Assembly: GCA_019748155.1 (NCBI GenBank)
Contig: JAIEPY010000019.1
Location: forward strand, 1-52,380
DNA length: 52,380 nucleotides
From: Burkholderiales bacterium
Lineage (GTDB): Bacteria > Pseudomonadota > Gammaproteobacteria > Burkholderiales > UBA11063
Direction of reading: 5' to 3'
The position numbers and the translations under genes are program-made. Below are positions 27,494 through 52,304 of the stretch, in pieces; position 1 is the first letter of the stretch; every line of letters starts with the position of its first letter. The notes below the pieces were generated by a model. The model was not told where the DNA came from, did not search any database, and was given only the letters and a program-made list of their open reading frames with translations.

Positions 27494-28423
27494 ATGAAAA
27501 AGATTATTTTAGCCAACCCGCGCGGCTTTTGCGCTGGTGTAGATCGGGCGATTACAATTGTTGAAACCTCATTGGCAAAATATGGTGCGCCAGTTTATGT
27601 CCGTCATGAAGTAGTGCATAATAAATATGTTGTAGATGGTTTGCAAGAACGCGGTGCAATTTTTATTGAAGAGATTAAGGATGTTCCCGAGGGGAGCATT
27701 TTAATTTATTCAGCACATGGGGTTCCTTTGTCAGTGCGTGAAGAAGCGATGGCAAAAAATTTAACCATGATTTTTGATGCAACTTGTCCGCTGGTAAGTA
27801 AAGTTCATGTTGAAATTAAGAATTTGCATAAGCAAAACTATACGATTATTATGATTGGACATCGGGGGCATCCTGAAGTTGAAGGTACGATGGGTCAGGT
27901 TAAAGATCATATTCATCTGGTTGAATCAGAAGCTGATGTTGAAACCTTGCCATTAGACCGCGATATTGAAAAAATTGCCGTAGTTACCCAAACTACTTTA
28001 TCAGTCGATGAAACCAAATCAATCATCGCTCGATTAAAAGAAACTTTTCCTAATTTGCGCTTACCTAAAAATGAAGATATTTGCTATGCCACGCAAAATC
28101 GTCAGGATGCGGTCAAAGAAATGGCGAAAAGTTGTGATGCAGTATTGGTAATTGGTAGTAAAAATAGTTCCAACTCTAATCGCTTGAAAGAGCTGGCAGA
28201 GAATTTGGGTGTAAAATCCTATTTGATTGATTTTGACTATGAAATAAAAAGTGAATGGCTGGATCAGGTGATGAATGTTGGTGTTACTGCTGGAGCTTCC
28301 GCACCAGAGGTTTTGGTTGAGGGTGTAATTAAGCGCTTGCAACAAGAAGGGTTTAATACTACTGAAACCCTAAATGTAGTTGAAGAGCATATGACTTTTG
28401 CTCTTCCTAGTGAATTAAGATAA
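27494..28423 (+). CDS. ispH: 4-hydroxy-3-methylbut-2-enyl diphosphate reductase
   Basis: This is the last enzyme of the MEP isoprenoid pathway, an iron-sulphur reductase giving IPP and DMAPP. The cluster cysteines are in PRGFCAGVDRA (Cys13), DATCPLVSKVH and DICYATQNRQ. The 309-residue length is usual. ispD and ispF of the same pathway occur at 38.6-39.7 kb. The four-gene cassette begins 84 bases downstream, with no terminator seen between. Confidence 0.97.
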   Translation: MKKIILANPRGFCAGVDRAITIVETSLAKYGAPVYVRHEVVHNKYVVDGLQERGAIFIEEIKDVPEGSILIYSAHGVPLSVREEAMAKNLTMIFDATCPLVSKVHVEIKNLHKQNYTIIMIGHRGHPEVEGTMGQVKDHIHLVESEADVETLPLDRDIEKIAVVTQTTLSVDETKSIIARLKETFPNLRLPKNEDICYATQNRQDAVKEMAKSCDAVLVIGSKNSSNSNRLKELAENLGVKSYLIDFDYEIKSEWLDQVMNVGVTAGASAPEVLVEGVIKRLQQEGFNTTETLNVVEEHMTFALPSELR

Positions 28424-28458
28424 TAAACGCGATATGTTTTTATAGCAAGTACTGGAAT

Positions 28459-28473
28459 GTGATCGTATATCAC
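28459..28473. promoter_or_regulatory. Short palindrome upstream of the ATPase cassette
   Basis: GTGAT-CGTAT-ATCAC is a perfect 5-bp inverted repeat, 35 bases before the first cassette gene. It could be an operator or a small hairpin. No regulator gene is present in the cassette, so this is only a candidate site. Confidence 0.3.
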
Positions 28474-28507
28474 CACTTAGGCGACTATTTAAACGAATGA
28501 GACTAAT

Positions 28508-29974
28508 ATGGAAAAAATAAAACACAACGATATTAAATTTATTTTTAAGAATATCGGAGCAATTGAATATGCCGAAGTTCCACTGAATGATTTAACTATG
28601 ATCGTGGGTAAAAATAGCACGTCAAAAACCTATCTGACATATATCATCTGGGGGTTTTTGGATTTTATTTATGAGGATAATTCACTTCCTACTGATTTAA
28701 TTAGAAGCATTATGTTTAATGGTAATGCATTAAAGCAAGAAGTTGATTTAAAGGATATTGAATCGAATTTAATATCTACATTCATACTTTTGTCCGAAGC
28801 TCTATATACTAAACAGCGAGTTTATGAAGTGTTGGCAATTGATGATATAAAACGCTTGGAAAAATTTCAATTCAATGTGAAGGTAGATAATCTTGAACTT
28901 AATCACAATATAAAAGTTGATGACTTTGATGTTAATCAAGTAAAAGTTGTTCCCAGTATTGGAAATGGTATTTTATCATTTAGTCTAATAAAACCAAGTG
29001 ATTACCAAGTGAACGATAATGATCTACAGTTGATAGCTAGTAATTTATTAATGCGTGTTCTGCGTCCATTTATCAAACAAATTTTTCCGCGTCCATTCAT
29101 TATAACTTCAGAACGCACGGGAATTGGTATTTTTCGCAAAGAAGTAGATGGCTATCGCTCTAGTTTTGCTGAGTCTTTAGCTAGAGATTCTACTACTAAA
29201 AAATATAATATGCTTGATAAAAATGTATTGAATAATATCGTTGATCGGGCAATAAATTCAATCGCTCGCTACCCGCAGCCAATATCCGATAATATTAGTG
29301 TGTCCAGAGATTTGTTTGATATAACTACTAAAACTGATTTTGCTATTCCAGCTAAAAAATATATTAAAGATAATTTAACACATGGTGAGTTTGTATTTAA
29401 TAAATCATTAAACGAAGTATTTTACAATCAAATAATAGGTAGTGCCAAAGTGTCGTTACCTTATTATCTAGCTTCGTCAAGTGTTAAATCACATTTACTT
29501 TTAGATAGCTATATTAATTATATCGCACAAACAGGACAGATATTAATCATTGATGAGCCAGAATTGAATTTACACCCTGATAATCTGCGTCATATGGCAA
29601 GACTTTTGGCAATGTTGGTAAATAATGGCGTAAAATTGTTATTCACTACTCATAGTGATTATATTATTAAAGAACTAAATAATCTAATAATGCTCGAAAG
29701 TTTACCAGAAGATGCACGTAATTATGCAATTAAACAAATCAAAAAAGAAACTAAAACTGCATATCAGCCAGAAATGTTTTTAGCTAAAGATAAACTAACT
29801 TGTGTTATTGCTAAACAAGATGAAAAACTTGGTCGTGTAAAAACTGAAATCGCACCAATTAATGAGTTTGGCATTGATGTAGACATAATTGATCGTGAAA
29901 TTAATGATATTGGCGAAACTAGTGATATACTATCAGAGCTTGTTAATGTAAACCATCGATCGATAGGCGAGTAG
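28508..29974 (+). CDS. AAA/ABC-type ATPase with atypical P-loop (cassette gene 1)
   Basis: This 488-residue ATPase belongs to the broad AAA_15/AAA_21 (OLD/RecF/SMC-like) group. It opens with an N-terminal strand and P-loop (TMIVGKNSTSKTYL, Lys40-Thr41) where the usual GxNGxGKS is replaced by GKNSTSKT. Walker B is QILIIDEPELNLHP (Asp349-Glu350), and an H-loop follows in LLFTTHSDYIIKEL. About 310 residues of insert lie between, including SERTGIGIFRKEVD. The C-terminal ~90 residues are charged and unrecognised. No transmembrane segment is seen. The next gene starts three bases after its stop. The ATPase class is visible; a defence role is inferred from the neighbours. Confidence 0.72.
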   Translation: MEKIKHNDIKFIFKNIGAIEYAEVPLNDLTMIVGKNSTSKTYLTYIIWGFLDFIYEDNSLPTDLIRSIMFNGNALKQEVDLKDIESNLISTFILLSEALYTKQRVYEVLAIDDIKRLEKFQFNVKVDNLELNHNIKVDDFDVNQVKVVPSIGNGILSFSLIKPSDYQVNDNDLQLIASNLLMRVLRPFIKQIFPRPFIITSERTGIGIFRKEVDGYRSSFAESLARDSTTKKYNMLDKNVLNNIVDRAINSIARYPQPISDNISVSRDLFDITTKTDFAIPAKKYIKDNLTHGEFVFNKSLNEVFYNQIIGSAKVSLPYYLASSSVKSHLLLDSYINYIAQTGQILIIDEPELNLHPDNLRHMARLLAMLVNNGVKLLFTTHSDYIIKELNNLIMLESLPEDARNYAIKQIKKETKTAYQPEMFLAKDKLTCVIAKQDEKLGRVKTEIAPINEFGIDVDIIDREINDIGETSDILSELVNVNHRSIGE

Positions 29975-29977
29975 CAG

Positions 29978-30547
29978 ATGTTTTCTACTTATTCATTAGA
30001 TGATTTGCTCGATGATAGTTTTAAGCTGTCTTTGGCTGTGGATAATCAGTTTATTCAAGAATGTAAACTGATTGAGTCATCACCAGATACTAAGAATCCT
30101 GAATTAAATGTTCTGATTAATGATATGGCTTGTAAGATGGTTGTGTTTACAGCTGATAAACGACGATTATCAAATAATCAAGAAGATAATATCTTACGGT
30201 ATTTTAATAATGGTATATCTGATCTTACAAAAATTCCTGACTATATTGTGTTTATAGAAGAATGTAATATTGTTGACGCTATTATTATAGAGATGAAATC
30301 TGAAACGTATGAAAAAAGTGACGTTACAGCTAAGTTTAAAAATGGCAAAATTATTGCTCACTATTTGGCAAGTATCACTGATAGAATATTAAATCCACCC
30401 AAATTATTATTGTCATTACCACCAACTAAAAAATCACCTGTAAATAAGGAAAGCCAAGAAAAATTTCGTCCCGATACTAGTAATGGTTGGTATACTATCA
30501 AAAGTAAGAGGTTTAACGCATTAGATTTATTGGCATTGCAACCATGA
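29978..30547 (+). CDS. Predicted PD-(D/E)XK-nuclease-like protein (cassette gene 2)
   Basis: I do not recognise the family of this 189-residue protein. The stretch TKIPDYIVFIEECNIVDAII-IEMKSE has the layout of a PD-(D/E)XK nuclease core: Pro87-Asp88 on one strand, 16 residues between, then a hydrophobic strand ending Glu105-Met-Lys107. A helix with KIIAHYLASI follows, as expected after the ExK strand. This suggests a small metal-dependent nuclease, but it rests on one motif. It is coupled to both neighbours, with a three-base gap before and an ATGA overlap after. Confidence 0.55.
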   Translation: MFSTYSLDDLLDDSFKLSLAVDNQFIQECKLIESSPDTKNPELNVLINDMACKMVVFTADKRRLSNNQEDNILRYFNNGISDLTKIPDYIVFIEECNIVDAIIIEMKSETYEKSDVTAKFKNGKIIAHYLASITDRILNPPKLLLSLPPTKKSPVNKESQEKFRPDTSNGWYTIKSKRFNALDLLALQP

Positions 30548-31686
30548 ATAATAACTTTATCAAACACATTATGCTAGAAAATTATAAATCAATTAAAAAG
30601 CTTGATTTAGAATTAAAATCGCTGAACGTGCTTATCGGTAGTAATGGTGCTGGTAAAAGTAATTTCATTAGTTTTTTTAATTTTTTACAAAATATAATTA
30701 AAGAAAACTTACGTGGATATGTATTGGATAAGGGTGGTTGCGAGACATTTTTGTATTATGGTACTAAGATATCAAGGTCTATAAGTGCAAAGATTATTTT
30801 TATAATTAAAGATGTAGAATATAGTATAGATAATTGTCTTGAGTATGGCTTTAAGTTAATGCCAACCAATAATAATAGCTTTCGCTTTGATTCTGAGGTT
30901 ATTGAAAGTAACTTATTACCTGATGAGATAAGTCGGCTGGATTTAGATAATAAAAGCTATGAATCTGAGCTATCCAATTCCTTTATTGGTAGTGATACAA
31001 ATGTTACTGATATAGATTTGGCTATTAGTGATATATTTTATTCAGATGTGCCAAATATTCAAGTTTTTCATTTTCATGACACCAGCGATACATCGCCGTT
31101 AAAAGCAACAGTTGCAAATAATGATAATTTATTCCTCCGTGCTGATGGGCAAAATTTAGCCTGCATGATTAAACTAATTTATGATAAATACCCAGAATAT
31201 TATCGGGTGATCATAGATACGATTCGTAATATCGTGCCAGATTTTCATGATTTCGTTATTCGCCACAATAGCGAGTTTGTAAGTTTAGAATGGTTTAATA
31301 AAAACAATGTTGATATCCCGTGGAAAGCGCATTATTTATCGGATGGTTCATTACGCTTTATCGCGCTAGCAGTATTGTTGTTAATGCCTAGTGAGCTACA
31401 ACCACCAGTTATTATTATTGATGAGCCAGAAATTGGGTTGCACCCCACTGCATTAAATGTTTTATCTGGATTAATTAAGCGCGCGTCTTCAGAGCGTCAG
31501 GTAATCATTAGTACTCAATCGGCAACATTGCTCAGTCAATTTGAGCCAGATGATGTGATTGTCGTCGATAAAAAAGACAAATATAGCGAATTTAAGCGCC
31601 TGAGTAATCATGATTTGGCAAAATGGTTAGAAAGTTACACACTTGGTGAATTATGGGAAACCAATGTTATTGGTGGCAGACCGTGA
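30544..31686 (+). CDS. AAA_21/ABC-type ATPase (cassette gene 3)
   Basis: This 380-residue ATPase has canonical motifs: Walker A LIGSNGAGKSNFISF (Lys38), an ABC signature-like HYLSDGSLRFIAL, Walker B VIIIDEPEIGLHPTAL, and a switch region VIISTQSATLLSQF where Gln replaces the usual His. The beginning, IKHIMLENYKSIKKLDLEL, is typical of RecF/OLD/RloA-like proteins. It overlaps genes 2 and 4 by four bases each. In other bacteria such ATPases are often paired with a DUF4276 protein, as here. Confidence 0.8.
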   Translation: MNNNFIKHIMLENYKSIKKLDLELKSLNVLIGSNGAGKSNFISFFNFLQNIIKENLRGYVLDKGGCETFLYYGTKISRSISAKIIFIIKDVEYSIDNCLEYGFKLMPTNNNSFRFDSEVIESNLLPDEISRLDLDNKSYESELSNSFIGSDTNVTDIDLAISDIFYSDVPNIQVFHFHDTSDTSPLKATVANNDNLFLRADGQNLACMIKLIYDKYPEYYRVIIDTIRNIVPDFHDFVIRHNSEFVSLEWFNKNNVDIPWKAHYLSDGSLRFIALAVLLLMPSELQPPVIIIDEPEIGLHPTALNVLSGLIKRASSERQVIISTQSATLLSQFEPDDVIVVDKKDKYSEFKRLSNHDLAKWLESYTLGELWETNVIGGRP

Positions 31687-32324
31687 TTAACTTGTGCTTC
31701 GTTGTCGAGGGATATGCTGAAGAAAATTTTGTTAATCATAAATTAAGTGTATATCTGCAAAGTAAAGTAAGTAAGACGCTAAATATTGATGTACAAAATT
31801 TAAAAGGCGGTATTTTGTATAGTGAGCTAATTGATAGGCTGAGAAATATAGCTCCGCAATACAATATTATTACGACACTAATTGACTTAGTTGGTCTTGG
31901 TGCTGCTAAACTAGATAATTATAGCGCAATTATGGCAAGCCGTAACATATCATCACAAGATAAGTCCTTACAGGTTCAACAGTTAATTGCAGATGCTGTA
32001 AGTTGTAGCAATGTAATTCCTTACGTTCAACCACATGAGTTTGAAGCATTATGCTTTGCAGATATTGAAGCATTAGCGCAAAGTGATCCATTGTTGGCTA
32101 AAAATAAAATTAGAATTGAGCAAATTTTGCAGAGTTATGCCTCAAATCCAGAAAATATAAATACAACACCAAGCAAATATCCGGCAAAACAGCTTGAAAA
32201 ATTTGCTTATACCAAAGGAGCAAGTAATTTTGCTTTGTATTGTGATGTAGATAAAATTAAAGCTAAATGTCCACATTTTAATAGGTGGATTAACCAGTTG
32301 TCAGAGACATTGTCATTGTTATAG
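31683..32324 (+). CDS. DUF4276-family, TOPRIM-like protein (cassette gene 4)
   Basis: This protein of about 213 residues begins INLCFVVEGYAEENFVNHKLSVYL, which matches the DUF4276 opening (a VEG-x-TEE-type strand and helix, thought to be TOPRIM-like). It continues with VVQ-type acidic positions such as YVQPHEFEALCFAD and the C-terminal PSKYPAKQLEKFA. I chose the GTG at 31683 because it overlaps the upstream stop (GTGA) and gives the family N-terminus; the frame is open from 31653. TOPRIM partners of such ATPases act as nucleases in OLD and PARIS systems (family knowledge). It ends 10 bases before ffh. Confidence 0.72.
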   Translation: MINLCFVVEGYAEENFVNHKLSVYLQSKVSKTLNIDVQNLKGGILYSELIDRLRNIAPQYNIITTLIDLVGLGAAKLDNYSAIMASRNISSQDKSLQVQQLIADAVSCSNVIPYVQPHEFEALCFADIEALAQSDPLLAKNKIRIEQILQSYASNPENINTTPSKYPAKQLEKFAYTKGASNFALYCDVDKIKAKCPHFNRWINQLSETLSLL

Positions 32325-32334
32325 GAACACAAAT

Positions 32335-33681
32335 ATGTTTGAAAATTTATCATCGAGACTCTCAACAGTAGTTAAAACTTTATCGGGTAATTCACGCCTG
32401 AGCGAAAGTAATATTGCCGATGCTTTACGTGAAATTCGGATTGCTTTACTTGAGGCCGATGTTGCACTCCCAGTAGTTAAGCAATTTATTGCTGATGTTA
32501 AAGAAGAAGCGCTTGGTGAAAAGGTTGTTGGTAGCCTTACTCCAGGTCAGGCATTAATTGATGTGGTTAATAAAAAACTAACCTCGCTGATGGGAGAATT
32601 TAATAACCAGCTGGATTTAAGTGCGGTGCCACCAGCAGTAATTTTGATGGCCGGTTTACAGGGGGCGGGTAAAACTACTACAGTGGGTAAACTTGCCAAA
32701 CGCTTAAAAGATAATGACAAGAAAAAAGTATTGGTAGTTAGTGCCGATGTCTATCGCCCGGCAGCGATTGAGCAGCTAAAAACATTAGCTAAAAGCTTAG
32801 ATGTAGAGTGTTTCCCTTCAACTGAACAGCAGCAACCTAAAGAAATCGCGTTAAGTGCGCTGGATTATGCGCGAAAACATTATTTTGATGTTCTGATCGT
32901 CGATACCGCAGGGCGCTTGAGCGTTGATGAATTCATGATGAATGAGATTAAAGATTTACACAAATCACTTAATCCAGTTGAAACTTTATTTGTAGTTGAT
33001 GCGATGCTTGGGCAAGATGCAGTAAATACTGCTAAAGCGTTTAATGATGCATTGGCATTAACCGGGGTAATTCTGACCAAAATGGACGGCGATGCGCGTG
33101 GTGGTGCAGCATTGTCAATCAGGAATATTACTGGTAAGCCGATTAAATTTATCGGGGTATCTGAGAAAATTAATGGTTTAGAACCTTTTTATCCGGATCG
33201 GATGGCGTCACGAATTTTGGGGATGGGTGATATCCTTTCATTGATTGATGAAGTTAAGGGTAACGTTGACGAAGCTGAAGCTAAAAAGCTTATGGATAAA
33301 GTTAAAAAGGGTAAAGGGTTTGACCTCAATGACTTTAAAATGCAATTTGAGCAAATGAATAATATGGGTGGTATGAGTAAGATATTGGATAAATTGCCCG
33401 GTAATATTGCGGAAAAAGCGCCACAGATTATTAATGATAAAATGATCAGTAAAAATGTTGCAATTATTGATTCTATGACCAAACTAGAACGGCAAAAACC
33501 AGAGTTATTAAAAGCCTCGCGTAAGCGCCGGATTGCGTTAGGGAGCGGTACTTCGGTACAAGAAGTTAATCAGTTATTAAAACAATATGAACAAATCAGT
33601 GGCATGATGAAAAAATTTAGCGGTGGTGGCGGTATGATGAAAATGATGAAAAATTTCAAACATCTAATGCCAAAAATGTAA
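32335..33681 (+). CDS. ffh: Signal recognition particle protein Ffh
   Basis: This essential SRP GTPase delivers membrane proteins to the translocon. The NG domain has GLQGAGKTTTVGKLA (G1), DTAGRLSVDEFMM (G3) and LTKMDGDARGGAAL (G4/5). The Met-rich M domain runs to the end (GMMKKFSGGGGMMKMMKNF). It has 448 residues. The AGGA that probably serves as its ribosome site overlaps the last codon region of the cassette, only 10 bases upstream. No promoter-sized gap exists, so ffh expression may partly depend on read-through of the cassette or an internal promoter. Confidence 0.97.
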   Translation: MFENLSSRLSTVVKTLSGNSRLSESNIADALREIRIALLEADVALPVVKQFIADVKEEALGEKVVGSLTPGQALIDVVNKKLTSLMGEFNNQLDLSAVPPAVILMAGLQGAGKTTTVGKLAKRLKDNDKKKVLVVSADVYRPAAIEQLKTLAKSLDVECFPSTEQQQPKEIALSALDYARKHYFDVLIVDTAGRLSVDEFMMNEIKDLHKSLNPVETLFVVDAMLGQDAVNTAKAFNDALALTGVILTKMDGDARGGAALSIRNITGKPIKFIGVSEKINGLEPFYPDRMASRILGMGDILSLIDEVKGNVDEAEAKKLMDKVKKGKGFDLNDFKMQFEQMNNMGGMSKILDKLPGNIAEKAPQIINDKMISKNVAIIDSMTKLERQKPELLKASRKRRIALGSGTSVQEVNQLLKQYEQISGMMKKFSGGGGMMKMMKNFKHLMPKM

Positions 33682-47410: not shown

Positions 47411-48314
47411 AATTGACGGTGTTTTGCTCTTGGATAAACCGCTTGGTTTATCGAGTAATCAGGCTATTCAAAAAGTAAAATGGATTCTAAATGCAGAGAA
47501 AGTAGGGCATACTGGTACCTTAGATCCTTTAGCAACAGGCCTTTTACCGATTTGCTTAGGGCAAGCAACTAAATTTGCCGGATATTTACTTGATGGTGAT
47601 AAAGAGTACATTGCTACAGCTCAACTAGGAGTTATTACTGATAGTGGCGATAGTGAGGGAAATTTGCTTGAAACACGTGCGGTGGATACCGATTTAGAGC
47701 GGGTTTTATCTTCATTTGAGCATTTCGTTGGTGAGATAGTGCAAATCCCTCCGATGTATTCGGCGCTTAAACATAATGGTCGTCCATTATATGAGTATGC
47801 GCGGGCTGGGATTAAAATTGAGCGTCCAGCGCGTAATGTTACGATTCATTCATTGTGTTTAGAAAATTATAATCCTCAGTTGCAACAAATTACCTTTATT
47901 GCACGGGTTAGCAAAGGAACCTATATCCGAACGCTAGCGGAAGACATTGGTAATCTTTTAGGATGTGGTGCATCACTAATTGCATTACGGCGAACTAAAA
48001 CCAATCAATTTCAGATCCAAGAAGCAATTACGCTCGATGATTTAGCCGCCAATGGGCTAGATGATCAGCGGCTATTGGCTGTTGATGTTCTAACTGAAGA
48101 GTTACAATCATATGAACTAACTGATGCAGAGTTTGCCGTCGTTAAATTTGGTAATATTGCATCAAGTTTAGAGAATAAATATCCGTTAAATCAAGATTAT
48201 CGCTTATATTTTAAACAACACTTTCTTGGTGTCGGTTATTTTAATGCGATTGAAAATCAGATCTTTCTCCATCCAAAACGTATAATCTCAAACCTAAGCA
48301 CTTTATTAGCATAG
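47391..48314 (+). CDS. truB: tRNA pseudouridine-55 synthase TruB
   Basis: This enzyme forms pseudouridine 55 in the tRNA T-loop. The start GVLLLDKPLGLSSNQAIQKVK and the catalytic GHTGTLDPLATGLLPICLG (Asp of LDP) are clear. PPMYSALKHNGRPLYEYARAG and VSKGTYIRTLAEDIG follow. I use ATG 47391, the first in-frame codon matching the family N-terminus; the frame is open further upstream inside rbfA. The protein has 307 residues. It ends the conserved operon; accessory DNA begins right after. Confidence 0.94.
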   Translation: MKKIRNKIDGVLLLDKPLGLSSNQAIQKVKWILNAEKVGHTGTLDPLATGLLPICLGQATKFAGYLLDGDKEYIATAQLGVITDSGDSEGNLLETRAVDTDLERVLSSFEHFVGEIVQIPPMYSALKHNGRPLYEYARAGIKIERPARNVTIHSLCLENYNPQLQQITFIARVSKGTYIRTLAEDIGNLLGCGASLIALRRTKTNQFQIQEAITLDDLAANGLDDQRLLAVDVLTEELQSYELTDAEFAVVKFGNIASSLENKYPLNQDYRLYFKQHFLGVGYFNAIENQIFLHPKRIISNLSTLLA

Positions 48315-48348
48315 TTTTTTTATTGTGCTAATTCAATGGATTGCTTCA

Positions 48349-48591
48349 ACTGGATTTTGGCACTTTTTTAAATTACACCACATTACAAACATTTATAATG
48401 TAACTGTCTGTGTTGTTTATAACAGTACAGCATAGTACATGTTGTATACAGTTTAGTTACTTTAAAGCTGTAACCTAATAAACTAATTTAAAGAGTCATA
48501 AAATAGCATGACATGCAATAAAATATTGAAAATTTACCAAACGTATTGGTGTTCCAATATTTATTAGATATTAAAAAGTGCCAAAGTCCAG
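48349..48591. mobile_element. MITE-like element 1 (~243 bp)
   Basis: The left end reads CTGGATTTTGGCACTTTTTT. Its inverse at the right end (48571-48591) reads CTGGACTTTGGCACTTTTT on the minus strand, giving about 21 bases with one mismatch and one indel. A possible 4-bp duplication TTCA flanks the unit (48345-48348 and 48592-48595). The interior has no ORF, so any transposase would act in trans. The family is not identified. Confidence 0.7.
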
Positions 48592-48833
48592 TTCATGTAC
48601 CTATCAGTAAAACTAATACTATTATCCGTATTGGATGATTAATCCTAAAAATGGCAGTTAGCCCTGTTGAATACCGAGATATTTTACAATTTTCTATTCG
48701 CTAGAGTTATTAACAATTAACATTTTTGCCACACTTAATTTGGCTTCGCAGCTGCATGTCTTACGGCATATGTGGTTGTTGTTAGTTGTTTGTTTTGTTG
48801 TTGTTTTCCCATGAATTTACTGAAAGTCTATGG

Positions 48834-48905
48834 TAAAATAATGGCCATTGTTAATAAAATGGAAATTTCGTTCTAATTTTTTGCAATTTAATTTTTAAAC
48901 CGTAC
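48834..48905 (+). repeat. Direct repeat copy 1 (~72 bp)
   Basis: It begins TAAAATAATGGCCATTGTT and includes TTGCAATTTAATTTTTAA. It is about 85% identical by eye to 50751-50822. Similarity fades just where MITE-like element 2 is inserted. Confidence 0.75.
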
Positions 48906-48909
48906 TTTA

Positions 48910-49133
48910 CTGAGAACTACACCAATTTTTATTTGACACGTAACATACTGATATAATTCACGTACAAGTGCTGGTTTTATAGAAAAGCTGAGTTTTTGAT
49001 GCCAAAATCTCTAACTTTATGTCAAAAGTGTATTTTTTATGTGGCAAACGCATTTATTCTTAGCCTATTTAATTATGAGTGCATGTGGTTAATATATGTA
49101 TATCAATGTGTTATAGAATTTGTGTAGTTCTCG
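48910..49133. mobile_element. MITE-like element 2 (~224 bp) with 8-bp target duplication
   Basis: The left end CTGAGAACTACACCAATT and the inverted right end CGAGAACTACACAAATT match over about 17 bases with few differences. A perfect 8-bp direct repeat, GTACTTTA, flanks it (48902-48909 and 49134-49141), as expected of a transposition target duplication. No ORF of useful length lies inside. The family is unknown; 8-bp duplications occur in several IS families, including ISL3 and ISAs1. Confidence 0.8.
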
Positions 49134-49207
49134 GTACTTTAAGTAATGATGCAACTATTCGTGTAGCTATTTTGTTATTAACTTTTACTTGAAAGTAATT
49201 AGTATAA

Positions 49208-49561
49208 ATGGGTAAATTAATTATTTCTTTATTTCTTGTTGTATGTATTTCATCTTGTGATAATAAACCGAAAGAGATGAAATCTCAAGTAATGAATAGC
49301 ATTGAGAACATAAATAGCGCAGACTGTTCAGCAATTATTAGAATAGCTGCTGATGCAGCTTCATCAGTAATGGGTATCTGGAGATTAAATTCAACCGGAA
49401 TGATTCCAGCTACCGAAAGTACAATATTGGCTACAGAACAAAATAGTAACGATTATGCTGCATATTTATTGTCTGCTTTTCTCAACAAAAACAATTACTC
49501 CTCCAATGATTTACAATTTTGTATTGAACAATATTCCAGATATCATGATAAACATATTTGA
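49208..49561 (+). CDS. Small lipoprotein, unknown function
   Basis: This is a 117-residue predicted lipoprotein. The signal peptide MGKLIISLFLVVCISSC ends in the lipobox ISSC, so it would be processed by LspA; Asp at +2 suggests retention in the inner membrane by the E. coli rule. The mature part has no family I recognise. The +1 frame stays open past its stop to 49679 and could encode a continuation (FDRNTRIRSNQIFN...), so a frameshifted longer ancestor is possible. The Sel1-repeat gene follows 152 bases later. Confidence 0.6.
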   Translation: MGKLIISLFLVVCISSCDNKPKEMKSQVMNSIENINSADCSAIIRIAADAASSVMGIWRLNSTGMIPATESTILATEQNSNDYAAYLLSAFLNKNNYSSNDLQFCIEQYSRYHDKHI

Positions 49562-49713
49562 TAGAAATACGAGGATAAGATCCAATCAAATATTTAATAT
49601 GGTTATTACTAACTCATATCAACATGAATTAAATAATAACGCTCTTAATTTCACCATAGAAACATACAAGGCTCAGTAAAAATTTAGATGTACTATACAA
49701 AAAGGCATTAATT

Positions 49714-50724
49714 ATGAAAAAATTATTTTTATATTTACTGTTAGGTTATACAAATGCTAACGCTGATTGTGTGATGCTTTGTAAAGACCAAAAATATACT
49801 CTAGCTTACCCAGAATGTTTAAAAGAAGCTGAGGCTGGGGATATTGATGCAATGTATAATGTTGGTCATCTGTATAATGATGGAAATGGTGTAACACAGG
49901 ATCATACTCAGGCTTATACATGGTGGTTAAAAGCAGCTAATCAAGGCAATGTTAAGGCGATGTATAATGTCGGTCACCTGTATTATGATGGTAATGGTGT
50001 TGACCAAGATTATACGAAGTCTTGTAACTGGATGACTAAAGCAGCAAATAAAGGTTTTGCAAACGCAAAAAAAGCAAAAAAGATAATTTGCGCATTAGCA
50101 AAAAAACCATTAATGTCTAAACGAGATTGCATGAAACAATCTATTTATAATATTAATCATGATAATATAAATTTAGGATACAAATTAGATCAAAGAGGTC
50201 GAAACTACTATTATATCTACAGTATTGGACAGTGTCAAGCAATTGATGACTATAAAAATGGAGTAGGCATGAGTGATCAAGTATCATTCCATAAAGTTGC
50301 TTTTCCTAATAGCAAAGAAAAACCAGTGAATACATTAATAGGTAAAATTTACACAAGCGAAGTAGCTTCTATAGCATGGAATGGTTATGCTAACGAATAT
50401 TTTAGGTTAAAAATTCAGGATCCTAAACAACATCAATTTAATAGTAATGAATCAAATAATTATGCAGATTTAATAATAAATACAGTCAAGCCGTTTGTCG
50501 TTATTCCTGAAGATGTTGATGTTAGAGCAAGTGCTACTATTAGAGTAGAATTTAATCCAACTTTGGATATAAAATCTGTTAAGCTGACAAAATCTAGTGG
50601 AAATTCATCATATGACAAAAATATTGAGAGTGCAATTTGGGCAGTTAAAAAGTTTCCGCCTTTACCAAATGGAGCTAATTTTGTTGATTATAGGGTAATA
50701 CAATTAACTTTCCGACCCCAATAA
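49714..50724 (+). CDS. Sel1-repeat protein with TolA/TonB-like C-terminal domain
   Basis: This exported 336-residue protein has a signal peptide (MKKLFLYLLLGYTNANA). Two Sel1-like repeats follow (residues ~45-80 and ~81-116; AMYNVGHLYNDGNGVTQD and AMYNVGHLYYDGNGVDQD). The middle ~130 residues are unrecognised. The C-terminal ~80 residues have VRASATIRVEFNPTLDIKSVKLTKSSGNSSYDKNIESAIW and KKFPPLP, the pattern of TolA/TonB C-terminal domains. No transmembrane anchor besides the signal is seen. The domain pairing is unusual. A periplasmic adaptor is inferred. Confidence 0.75.
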   Translation: MKKLFLYLLLGYTNANADCVMLCKDQKYTLAYPECLKEAEAGDIDAMYNVGHLYNDGNGVTQDHTQAYTWWLKAANQGNVKAMYNVGHLYYDGNGVDQDYTKSCNWMTKAANKGFANAKKAKKIICALAKKPLMSKRDCMKQSIYNINHDNINLGYKLDQRGRNYYYIYSIGQCQAIDDYKNGVGMSDQVSFHKVAFPNSKEKPVNTLIGKIYTSEVASIAWNGYANEYFRLKIQDPKQHQFNSNESNNYADLIINTVKPFVVIPEDVDVRASATIRVEFNPTLDIKSVKLTKSSGNSSYDKNIESAIWAVKKFPPLPNGANFVDYRVIQLTFRPQ

Positions 50725-50750
50725 CTTTATTCGTAACTATCAGCCCTAGC

Positions 50751-50822
50751 TAAAATAATGGTCATTGTTTATAAAATGAAAATTCCGTTTAATTTATTTG
50801 CAATTTAATTTTTAATCCACAC
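50751..50822 (+). repeat. Direct repeat copy 2 (~72 bp)
   Basis: It begins TAAAATAATGGTCATTGTTT and shares TTGCAATTTAATTTTTAA with the copy at 48834-48905. It lies 37 bases before the gene at 50859. The two copies bracket the lipoprotein and Sel1 genes. Confidence 0.75.
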
Positions 50823-50858
50823 TGTGTTAAGTATAAATCAAAAACTAGGAATTTATAA

Positions 50859-51662
50859 ATGGCAAGTCTTTACAAATATTTTACAGAAAAAGATCATATG
50901 GACTTATTTATGGCTGGAAATGTTAGATTTTCCAGTTTAGCATATTATAAACATTTAGAAAATAATGGTACAATCTCAGATGAAAATGAGGGTGAAGCAG
51001 TGTTTTCACCTAAAAAAGAAACTATTGCTAAATTAATACTAACTCCACACGATATAACAAGAAAACCAATAGCACTAAATCCAATAATTCTAGCAAGTGA
51101 TCCAGAGCTCAAGATTCTTCTCCGTGATTATTCTCATTATTTCACTTTTTGTTCTTCACACAAAAATGTTGCAAATGACTTTACTAATGAAAATAACAAC
51201 TATAAATATTTTGTTGAATTTGACAAAGATGATTTCAATAATAAATTTGAGGAACTTATTAAAGAATACAGAAACATATATGAGAAAAACAACCAAGATC
51301 AAAAGCTTAACTTTTCTAAAATAAGCATTAATAATATTGATTATTTACTATTTTGCCGATGGGAAAGCTTACCATATGGGAAAGTTACATATTATGATTA
51401 TAGACAATCATTTATAAAAGATAATCATCCAGCTATGAGAAAAACTAATGATTTTAAGTCACAACAAGAATATAGACACCTTATATATGTAAATTATTTT
51501 AAAGATGATACAACTAAAAGTCATGAGGAGCAATTAATGAATCACAAAAAATATAACAATGTTGATACAGATATAGAAGATTCAGGTTTTTTTAATACAC
51601 TTAATATTGTTATCGAATTAAAGGATTTAAAAATCATTAATTCTGGTAAAATAAGGTCGTAA
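50859..51662 (+). CDS. Hypothetical cytosolic protein (LYKYF...RFSSLAYYK type)
   Basis: This 267-residue, AT-rich gene encodes a charged soluble protein with no signal or membrane segment. The start, SLYKYFTEKDHMDLFMAGNVRFSSLAYYKHLE, recalls a scattered group of uncharacterised phage and plasmid-borne proteins that open 'LYKY...G.IRF..L..YR..ED', related in style to DUF2971; I am not certain. A second recognisable stretch is FKSQQEYRHLIYV. A toxin or effector role would be a guess. Isolated between a repeat copy and an IS remnant, it is likely acquired. Confidence 0.55.
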   Translation: MASLYKYFTEKDHMDLFMAGNVRFSSLAYYKHLENNGTISDENEGEAVFSPKKETIAKLILTPHDITRKPIALNPIILASDPELKILLRDYSHYFTFCSSHKNVANDFTNENNNYKYFVEFDKDDFNNKFEELIKEYRNIYEKNNQDQKLNFSKISINNIDYLLFCRWESLPYGKVTYYDYRQSFIKDNHPAMRKTNDFKSQQEYRHLIYVNYFKDDTTKSHEEQLMNHKKYNNVDTDIEDSGFFNTLNIVIELKDLKIINSGKIRS

Positions 51663-51821
51663 GCGCTCCATTAAGTATATATTGACGTATTGGAGCAACT
51701 TAAAGCATGGTGATGTTTATAGTATTATTGATAAGTCATGGTTAATAAGCGTAGCGTAGGGAATTAAGCTTTTGGTTGGTAATCTAGACCAATATTCCAT
51801 GGCAGGAGTTTTCCATGATCC

Positions 51822-52067
51822 TCAATACTCTGGGGTACGCGCAGTCAAATAACATTCATGTTCCAAAAAGTTTAAATGACGCCAACTCTTCTCAACCGTG
51901 TCATATGCCTTGTATTCACCATCAATTCCGCTAATACCAAATGTAGAACCTTTAACAAAATCTAACATGATGTTTAGCTTTTTCTGTTTAACATCAAAAT
52001 CAATCCTTTTTACAAATCATGGTTTTTCAATATGAAGGGCTGTACTAAAAAGAGTCGAAATATGCAT
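51822..52067 (-). pseudogene. ISL3-family transposase, N-terminal remnant
   Basis: The minus-strand frame from ATG 52067 reads MHISTLFSTALHIEKP, then a TGA at codon 17 where the family has Trp, then FVKRIDFDVKQKKLNIMLDF, VKGSTFGISGIDGEYKAYDT and VEKSWRHLNFLEHECYLTAR, before a second stop. WRHLNF.EHECYL and KGSTF are ISL3 transposase hallmarks. The zinc-binding Cys pair expected after KGSTF is lost (GISGIDG), and the catalytic domain is absent. A possible IS end, GCTCTTTTGAAAAATGAG, lies upstream on the minus strand at about 52144-52161. Confidence 0.82.
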
Positions 52068-52233
52068 AATAAATTAACCCTAAATAATTAAAGATAGCAT
52101 AATTTTAACCATTTATTAATCAAACAATCTAAGTGGTTACCCACTCATTTTTCAAAAGAGCTATTTTTATTTAAATATAATAAATGCTTATGTAATAGTA
52201 CGATTATATAATCTAAATAGTTGCGAAAAATTT

Positions 52234-52263
52234 TTGACAGCTGCTGAAATATTATGGCATAAT
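52234..52263 (+). promoter_or_regulatory. Promoter of tRNA-Gly
   Basis: A perfect TTGACA (52234-52239), an 18-base spacer and CATAAT (52258-52263) lie about 41 bases before the tRNA. It is the best sigma70 match in the window. Confidence 0.8.
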
Positions 52264-52304
52264 AAGCACCTCAACGAAAAGAGGCATCTAGTGCAAGCTA
52301 GTGT

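Follow-up and report, generated by a model that had tools for sequence, protein, structure and literature searches.

Four genes between ispH and ffh of a Burkholderiales bacterium: probably two independent two-gene defence modules

In the genome of a Burkholderiales bacterium (NCBI GenBank assembly GCA_019748155.1; 2.67 Mb), ispH and ffh are separated by a cassette of four genes, in which an ATPase gene followed by a gene for a nuclease-like partner occurs twice. The cassette is located in contig JAIEPY010000019.1 (G000:C127; G, C and L numbers designate genomes, contigs and loci), positions 1 to 52,380 of which were analyzed and are called the window below. An initial annotation, made from the sequence alone, had proposed that the four genes form one undescribed defence system, and the question raised by the locus is whether they do, or whether each pair is a system of its own. 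Our results indicate that the cassette very probably combines two defence modules of two genes each, which are independent of one another and became stacked at a site of gene gain: genes 1 and 2, a PD-T4-4/WonAB-type pair, and genes 3 and 4, a HEC-01 pair. The gene content proposed by the annotation was recovered in all parts, namely two different ABC-type ATPases, a PD-(D/E)XK motif and a DUF4276 protein with a predicted Toprim-like fold, and its repeated pattern of ATPase plus nuclease-like partner was found to be a PD-T4-4 pair followed by a HEC-01 pair.

The ispH-ffh junction and the distribution of the two pairs

The closest relative, G022, in which ispH and ffh are 98% identical to those of the window, has the gene order ispH-gene3-gene4-ffh, without genes 1 and 2; its gene 3 orthologue, at the same site, is 84% identical. 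When the window was compared by blastn with the G022 locus, the alignment extended to position 28422 and started again from 30547; the window therefore contains an extra 2,124 bp carrying genes 1 and 2, in place of which G022 has 25 bp. In the more distantly related G002, gene3-gene4-ffh is located behind an unrelated gene. Genes 3 and 4 were probably resident first, and genes 1 and 2 would have been inserted upstream of them later, in the lineage of the window. No mobile signature that would point to a repeat-mediated insertion was found at the leader between ispH and gene 1, because this leader occurs only once in the genome.

Comparison of the junction in the genus (loci L027, L028, L030-L033, L035, L045, L046, L048, L203 and L204) showed ispH and ffh directly adjacent in seven congeners, with gaps of about 18-260 bp; the position of the cassette between these two genes is confirmed. 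In G005, G007 and G009 unrelated genes lie between them, and the contents found in the genus include a polysaccharide-type cluster, a set of six genes, a Kelch-repeat protein, and HEC-01 with or without PD-T4-4. Since unrelated genes occupy this site in other congeners, the junction gains genes repeatedly: it is a recurrent gene-gain spot in the genus, in which accessory defence genes may be sought. The four-gene block was absent from the congeners examined, the closest relative having genes 3 and 4 only, more distant congeners an empty site, and still others unrelated genes, so that the neighbourhood is not conserved as a single system would lead one to expect. The relatives have kept the intermediate states, i.e., an empty site, one pair and two pairs. 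The ispH-ffh intergenic region is 179-260 bp long in three congeners (L027, L031 and L035), and a similar stretch, resembling a small repeat element, is present in both L027 and L035.

Loci of the gene 1-2 type without DUF4276 were found in the same genus in G003, G012 and G021 (gene 1 plus partner) and, in the genome of the window itself, at G000:C95, where the copy is interrupted by the contig end; each of these copies closely follows a housekeeping gene. When the surroundings of 80 genome loci were inspected, a DUF4276 gene was present beside only one gene-1 locus, on the opposite strand. PD-T4-4_A was detected in 14 and DUF4276 in 32 of 369 genomes of the class, and the two were adjacent only in the window; in G243, from the same sample, unrelated genes separate them over about 7 kb. 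Among 398 genomes of the phylum the corresponding numbers were 15 and 59, and in the nearest case besides the window, G514, the two families are on opposite strands. No second same-strand adjacency of both modules was observed in these about 770 sampled genomes.

The single four-gene system was rejected because the four genes co-occur nowhere else in the samples searched and because of the intermediate state in G022. Its gene order did not recur on one strand in the genomes sampled from the class and the phylum, nor around the 80 loci, and in PADLOC the two halves match, separately, the already named entries PD-T4-4 and HEC-01. Both modules are, as judged from sequence, of already catalogued kinds, and the reading of the four genes as one new system is not supported. 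When known two-gene modules are inserted one after the other into a housekeeping operon, the result can look like a new multi-gene defence system.

The PD-T4-4/WonAB-type pair

Gene 1 matched the PADLOC model PD-T4-4_A (E=1.8e-82) over its length (residues 10-473 of 488), as well as PDC-M47A (E=8.4e-70) and the Pfam families AAA_15/AAA_21. Its motifs comprise a Walker A variant, GKNSTSKT (K40), SERTG (R203), the signature-like SSSVKS, the Walker B motif LIIDEPE (E350) and the H-loop TTHSD (H382), and residues K40, R203, E350 and H382 were invariant among 5 homologues. On the basis of motifs rather than of a direct alignment, these residues correspond to K34, R182, E300 and H333 of WonA.

A homologous partner of about 190 aa was located directly behind 92 of 93 gene-1 homologues. 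In the window this partner is gene 2, which matched PD-T4-4_B with E=6.9e-8 and contains the motif D88...[E/D]105-x-K107. All 52 homologues in its family have D88 and K107, with E (40 members) or D (12 members) at position 105. This pattern is that of the PD-(D/E)XK signature, an assignment resting on motif and family membership.

Genes 1 and 2 match both members of PD-T4-4 (PMC9519451), in the same order and with the same spacing. The pair departs from PD-T4-4 in the divergence of gene 2 and in the Walker A motif of gene 1, which has Ser instead of Gly before the lysine, a change also seen in two congeners. PD-T4-4, which was recovered in a functional selection with phage (Vassallo et al. 2022, PMC9519451), has been treated as an operon related to WonAB, with variations in inserts and C-terminal extension (PMC12137116). 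WonAB of Vibrio cholerae requires its OLD-type ABC ATPase as well as its PD-(D/E)xK protein, and protection is lost in mutants of the ATPase motifs and of the nuclease lysine; the system is reported to abort infection and to shut down translation (PMC12137116). The likeness to WonAB lies in an ABC ATPase with OLD-type deviations accompanied by a separate small PD-(D/E)xK protein ("OLD-ABC ATPase + novel REase"), and the residues essential in WonAB have motif-level counterparts in the four invariant residues of gene 1 and in K107 of gene 2. These similarities identify genes 1 and 2 as a predicted PD-T4-4/WonAB-type module. By analogy, a dimer of the OLD-like ABC ATPase would sense infection and license the small putative PD-(D/E)XK nuclease, whose action would stop translation and so end the infection abortively.

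All five PD-T4-4-type copies seen in the genus (L050, which is G000:C95, L052, L053, L054 and the window copy at 28508) lie 18-134 bp 3' of a housekeeping gene and in the same direction; these upstream genes, named from their translations and not by family search, are purL, an RNase-R-like gene, mutL, a DAHP synthase gene and ispH. No integrase was visible at the five copies, and their transcription may be borrowed from the upstream host gene.

The HEC-01 pair

Gene 3 matched HEC-01A of PADLOC with E=1.8e-123 and the Pfam family AAA_21 with E=1.3e-25. It contains the Walker A motif GSNGAGKS, the signature LSDGS and the Walker B motif IIIDEPE, and STQS replaces the H-loop histidine. Gene 4 matched PF14103 (DUF4276; E=3.7e-29) and HEC-01B (E=3.6e-39). 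HEC-01 is a candidate system of PADLOC-DB composed of an ABC ATPase and a DUF4276 protein; genes 3 and 4 match both members, joined by the usual short overlap, and differ from it in little more than the divergence of gene 4 at some DUF4276 positions.

Residues E9, D68 and E121 of gene 4 were invariant across 16 diverse DUF4276 homologues. The AlphaFold model of the protein (predicted local distance difference test score, pLDDT, 81.5; predicted template modelling score 0.82) had as its best match in the Protein Data Bank (PDB) the C-terminal (Toprim) domain of Xcc OLD, 6njx (probability 1.00, E=9.8e-4, template modelling score 0.45). The invariant residues and this match therefore support gene 4 as a putative Toprim-like nuclease. 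The dN/dS values between the window and G022 were 0.155 for gene 3 and 0.170 for gene 4, with 0.009-0.067 for the flanking housekeeping genes; both cassette genes are under purifying selection, as expected of functional accessory genes.

The literature searched yielded no published mechanism for a DUF4276 pair. The ABC ATPase and the separate DUF4276 protein have the layout of a split OLD, which suggests a sensor and a nuclease that would work in the manner of PARIS (PMC12839542). PARIS (AriA plus AriB) has the same layout, but AriB is not a DUF4276 protein and gene 3 fits HEC-01A far better than AriA; PARIS itself was discarded, gene 4 being DUF4276 with no AriB match in PADLOC. OLD, Gabija, Septu and AbiL resemble the cassette in that each combines an OLD-family ABC ATPase with a nuclease, either as a separate partner or within one protein. 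None of them was retained: the ATPases of the cassette have no fused Toprim domain, as OLD and GajA of Gabija would require, and no GajB helicase is present; the match to PtuA of Septu was weak (4.1e-8) and there is no HNH partner (PtuB); for AbiL/RloAB, gene 3 matched AbiLi weakly, at 3e-27, far below HEC-01A, and no AbiLii match was obtained.

The genome of the window contains a second pair of ATPase and DUF4276 genes (L051, G000:C116); behind it lie another AAA-type ATPase and additional large open reading frames (ORFs), possibly a defence island. At L208 (G003:C193) the gene 3 homologue is broken into two ORFs and the gene 4 homologue looks intact, as in a decaying HEC-01 copy.

Alternative readings and layout of the cassette

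The most likely function of the cassette, judged by analogy, is that of two independent abortive defences, each with an ATPase sensor and a nuclease effector. Several observations weigh against this interpretation. The score of gene 2 against PD-T4-4_B is weak, and its predicted model (pLDDT 76.8) did not recover the PD-(D/E)XK fold in a Foldseek search of the PDB, where the best match, at E=0.13, was below significance. In our literature searches neither HEC-01 nor DUF4276 was found in a defence context, HEC-01 being a database candidate. Finally, PD-T4-4_A and DUF4276, although not adjacent, occur in the same genomes in excess: 9 of the 14 class genomes and 14 of the 15 phylum genomes with PD-T4-4_A also have DUF4276, which is more than expected when kinship is ignored.

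One or both pairs could instead serve DNA repair, or maintain plasmids and prophages like a toxin-antitoxin system. Stand-alone gene 3-4 pairs, with the usual short overlap, were found on plasmids of Aeromonas (adjoining WYL and SNF2 genes), Nostoc, Acinetobacter and Piscirickettsia, and next to the repressor of a Mu-like prophage; stand-alone gene 1-2 pairs were found on Klebsiella and E. coli plasmids of 4-5 kb. Such locations would also fit addiction, and OLD/RecF-like ATPases occur in repair. We nevertheless consider this role unlikely: WonAB has been demonstrated to act against phage rather than as a simple toxin-antitoxin system (PMC12137116), PD-T4-4 came from a phage selection (PMC9519451), and the pairs are patchily present among congeners. 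In scans of viral contigs the HEC-01 pair was seen at a few loci only.

The junctions between the genes bear on whether the two pairs act jointly. Genes 1 and 2 are 3 bp apart, genes 2 and 3 overlap by ATGA, and genes 3 and 4 overlap by GTGA, given a start of gene 4 at GTG 31683; with this start the three-base gap and two four-base overlaps of the initial annotation stand. A longer gene 4, starting at ATG 31653, was proposed by the ORF tool and is less likely because the homologues start at the equivalent of "MINLCF". No clear ribosome-binding site was seen in the 20 bases upstream of gene 3, and the ATGA overlap may couple the translation of genes 2 and 3; co-expression of the modules in this lineage, although stacking brought them together, is therefore plausible, and would not require shared chemistry. 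That the ATGA join makes one translationally coupled unit in this lineage, with two nuclease effectors that back each other up, has a slim chance of being correct; were it so, a phage that blocks one module would still face the other, made in fixed proportion.

Joint action of both ATPase-nuclease pairs, as one cooperative system, would account for the tight spacing and common orientation, for a gene 3 whose translation may depend on gene 2, and for the genome-level excess described above. It is very improbable, given that genes 3 and 4 stand alone at the same locus in G022, that genes 1 and 2 stand alone in congeners and at nearly all homologous loci, and that the adjacency was not met a second time. 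Equally improbable is an ancestral four-gene block from which genes 1 and 2 were precisely lost in G022 and others: one genome pair cannot tell loss from gain and the four genes read as a neat operon, but the more distant G002 also has genes 3 and 4 without genes 1 and 2, behind its unrelated gene, and a block found in no congener would require more losses than gains.

The features of the two stacked modules and their site are listed in Table 1. The other frames of the four genes contain 7 to 82 stop codons per gene. The GC content of the cassette genes is 30.4-33.2%, against 36.6-41.8% for ileS, lspA, ispH and ffh, in agreement with the annotated AT-richness of the cassette relative to its flanks. 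A scan of the cassette for intrinsic terminators and clear promoters gave nothing usefully above chance.

Table 1. Genes and other features of the ispH-ffh region in the window
Feature	Position	Strand	Size	Description
ispH	27494..28423	+		left flank of insertion site
leader ispH to gene 1	28424..28507	+	84 bp	single copy in own genome
lineage-specific insertion	28423..30546	+		carries genes 1 and 2; from blastn of window against G022 locus
gene 1	28508..29974	+	488 aa	OLD-type ABC ATPase, PD-T4-4_A / PDC-M47A / WonA-like
gene 2	29978..30547	+	189 aa	PD-T4-4_B / WonB-like putative nuclease
gene 3	30544..31686	+	380 aa	ABC ATPase, HEC-01A
gene 4	31683..32324	+	213 aa	GTG start; DUF4276 protein, HEC-01B, Toprim/OLD-like putative nuclease
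ffh	32335..33681	+		right flank of insertion site; 10 bp after gene 4

A second AT-rich stretch of the window, at 48300-52300, has a GC content of about 0.28-0.31, contains small ORFs and ends at a tRNA-Gly gene. It includes the genes of a Sel1-repeat-like protein (49714-50724) and of a 267-aa protein (50859-51662).

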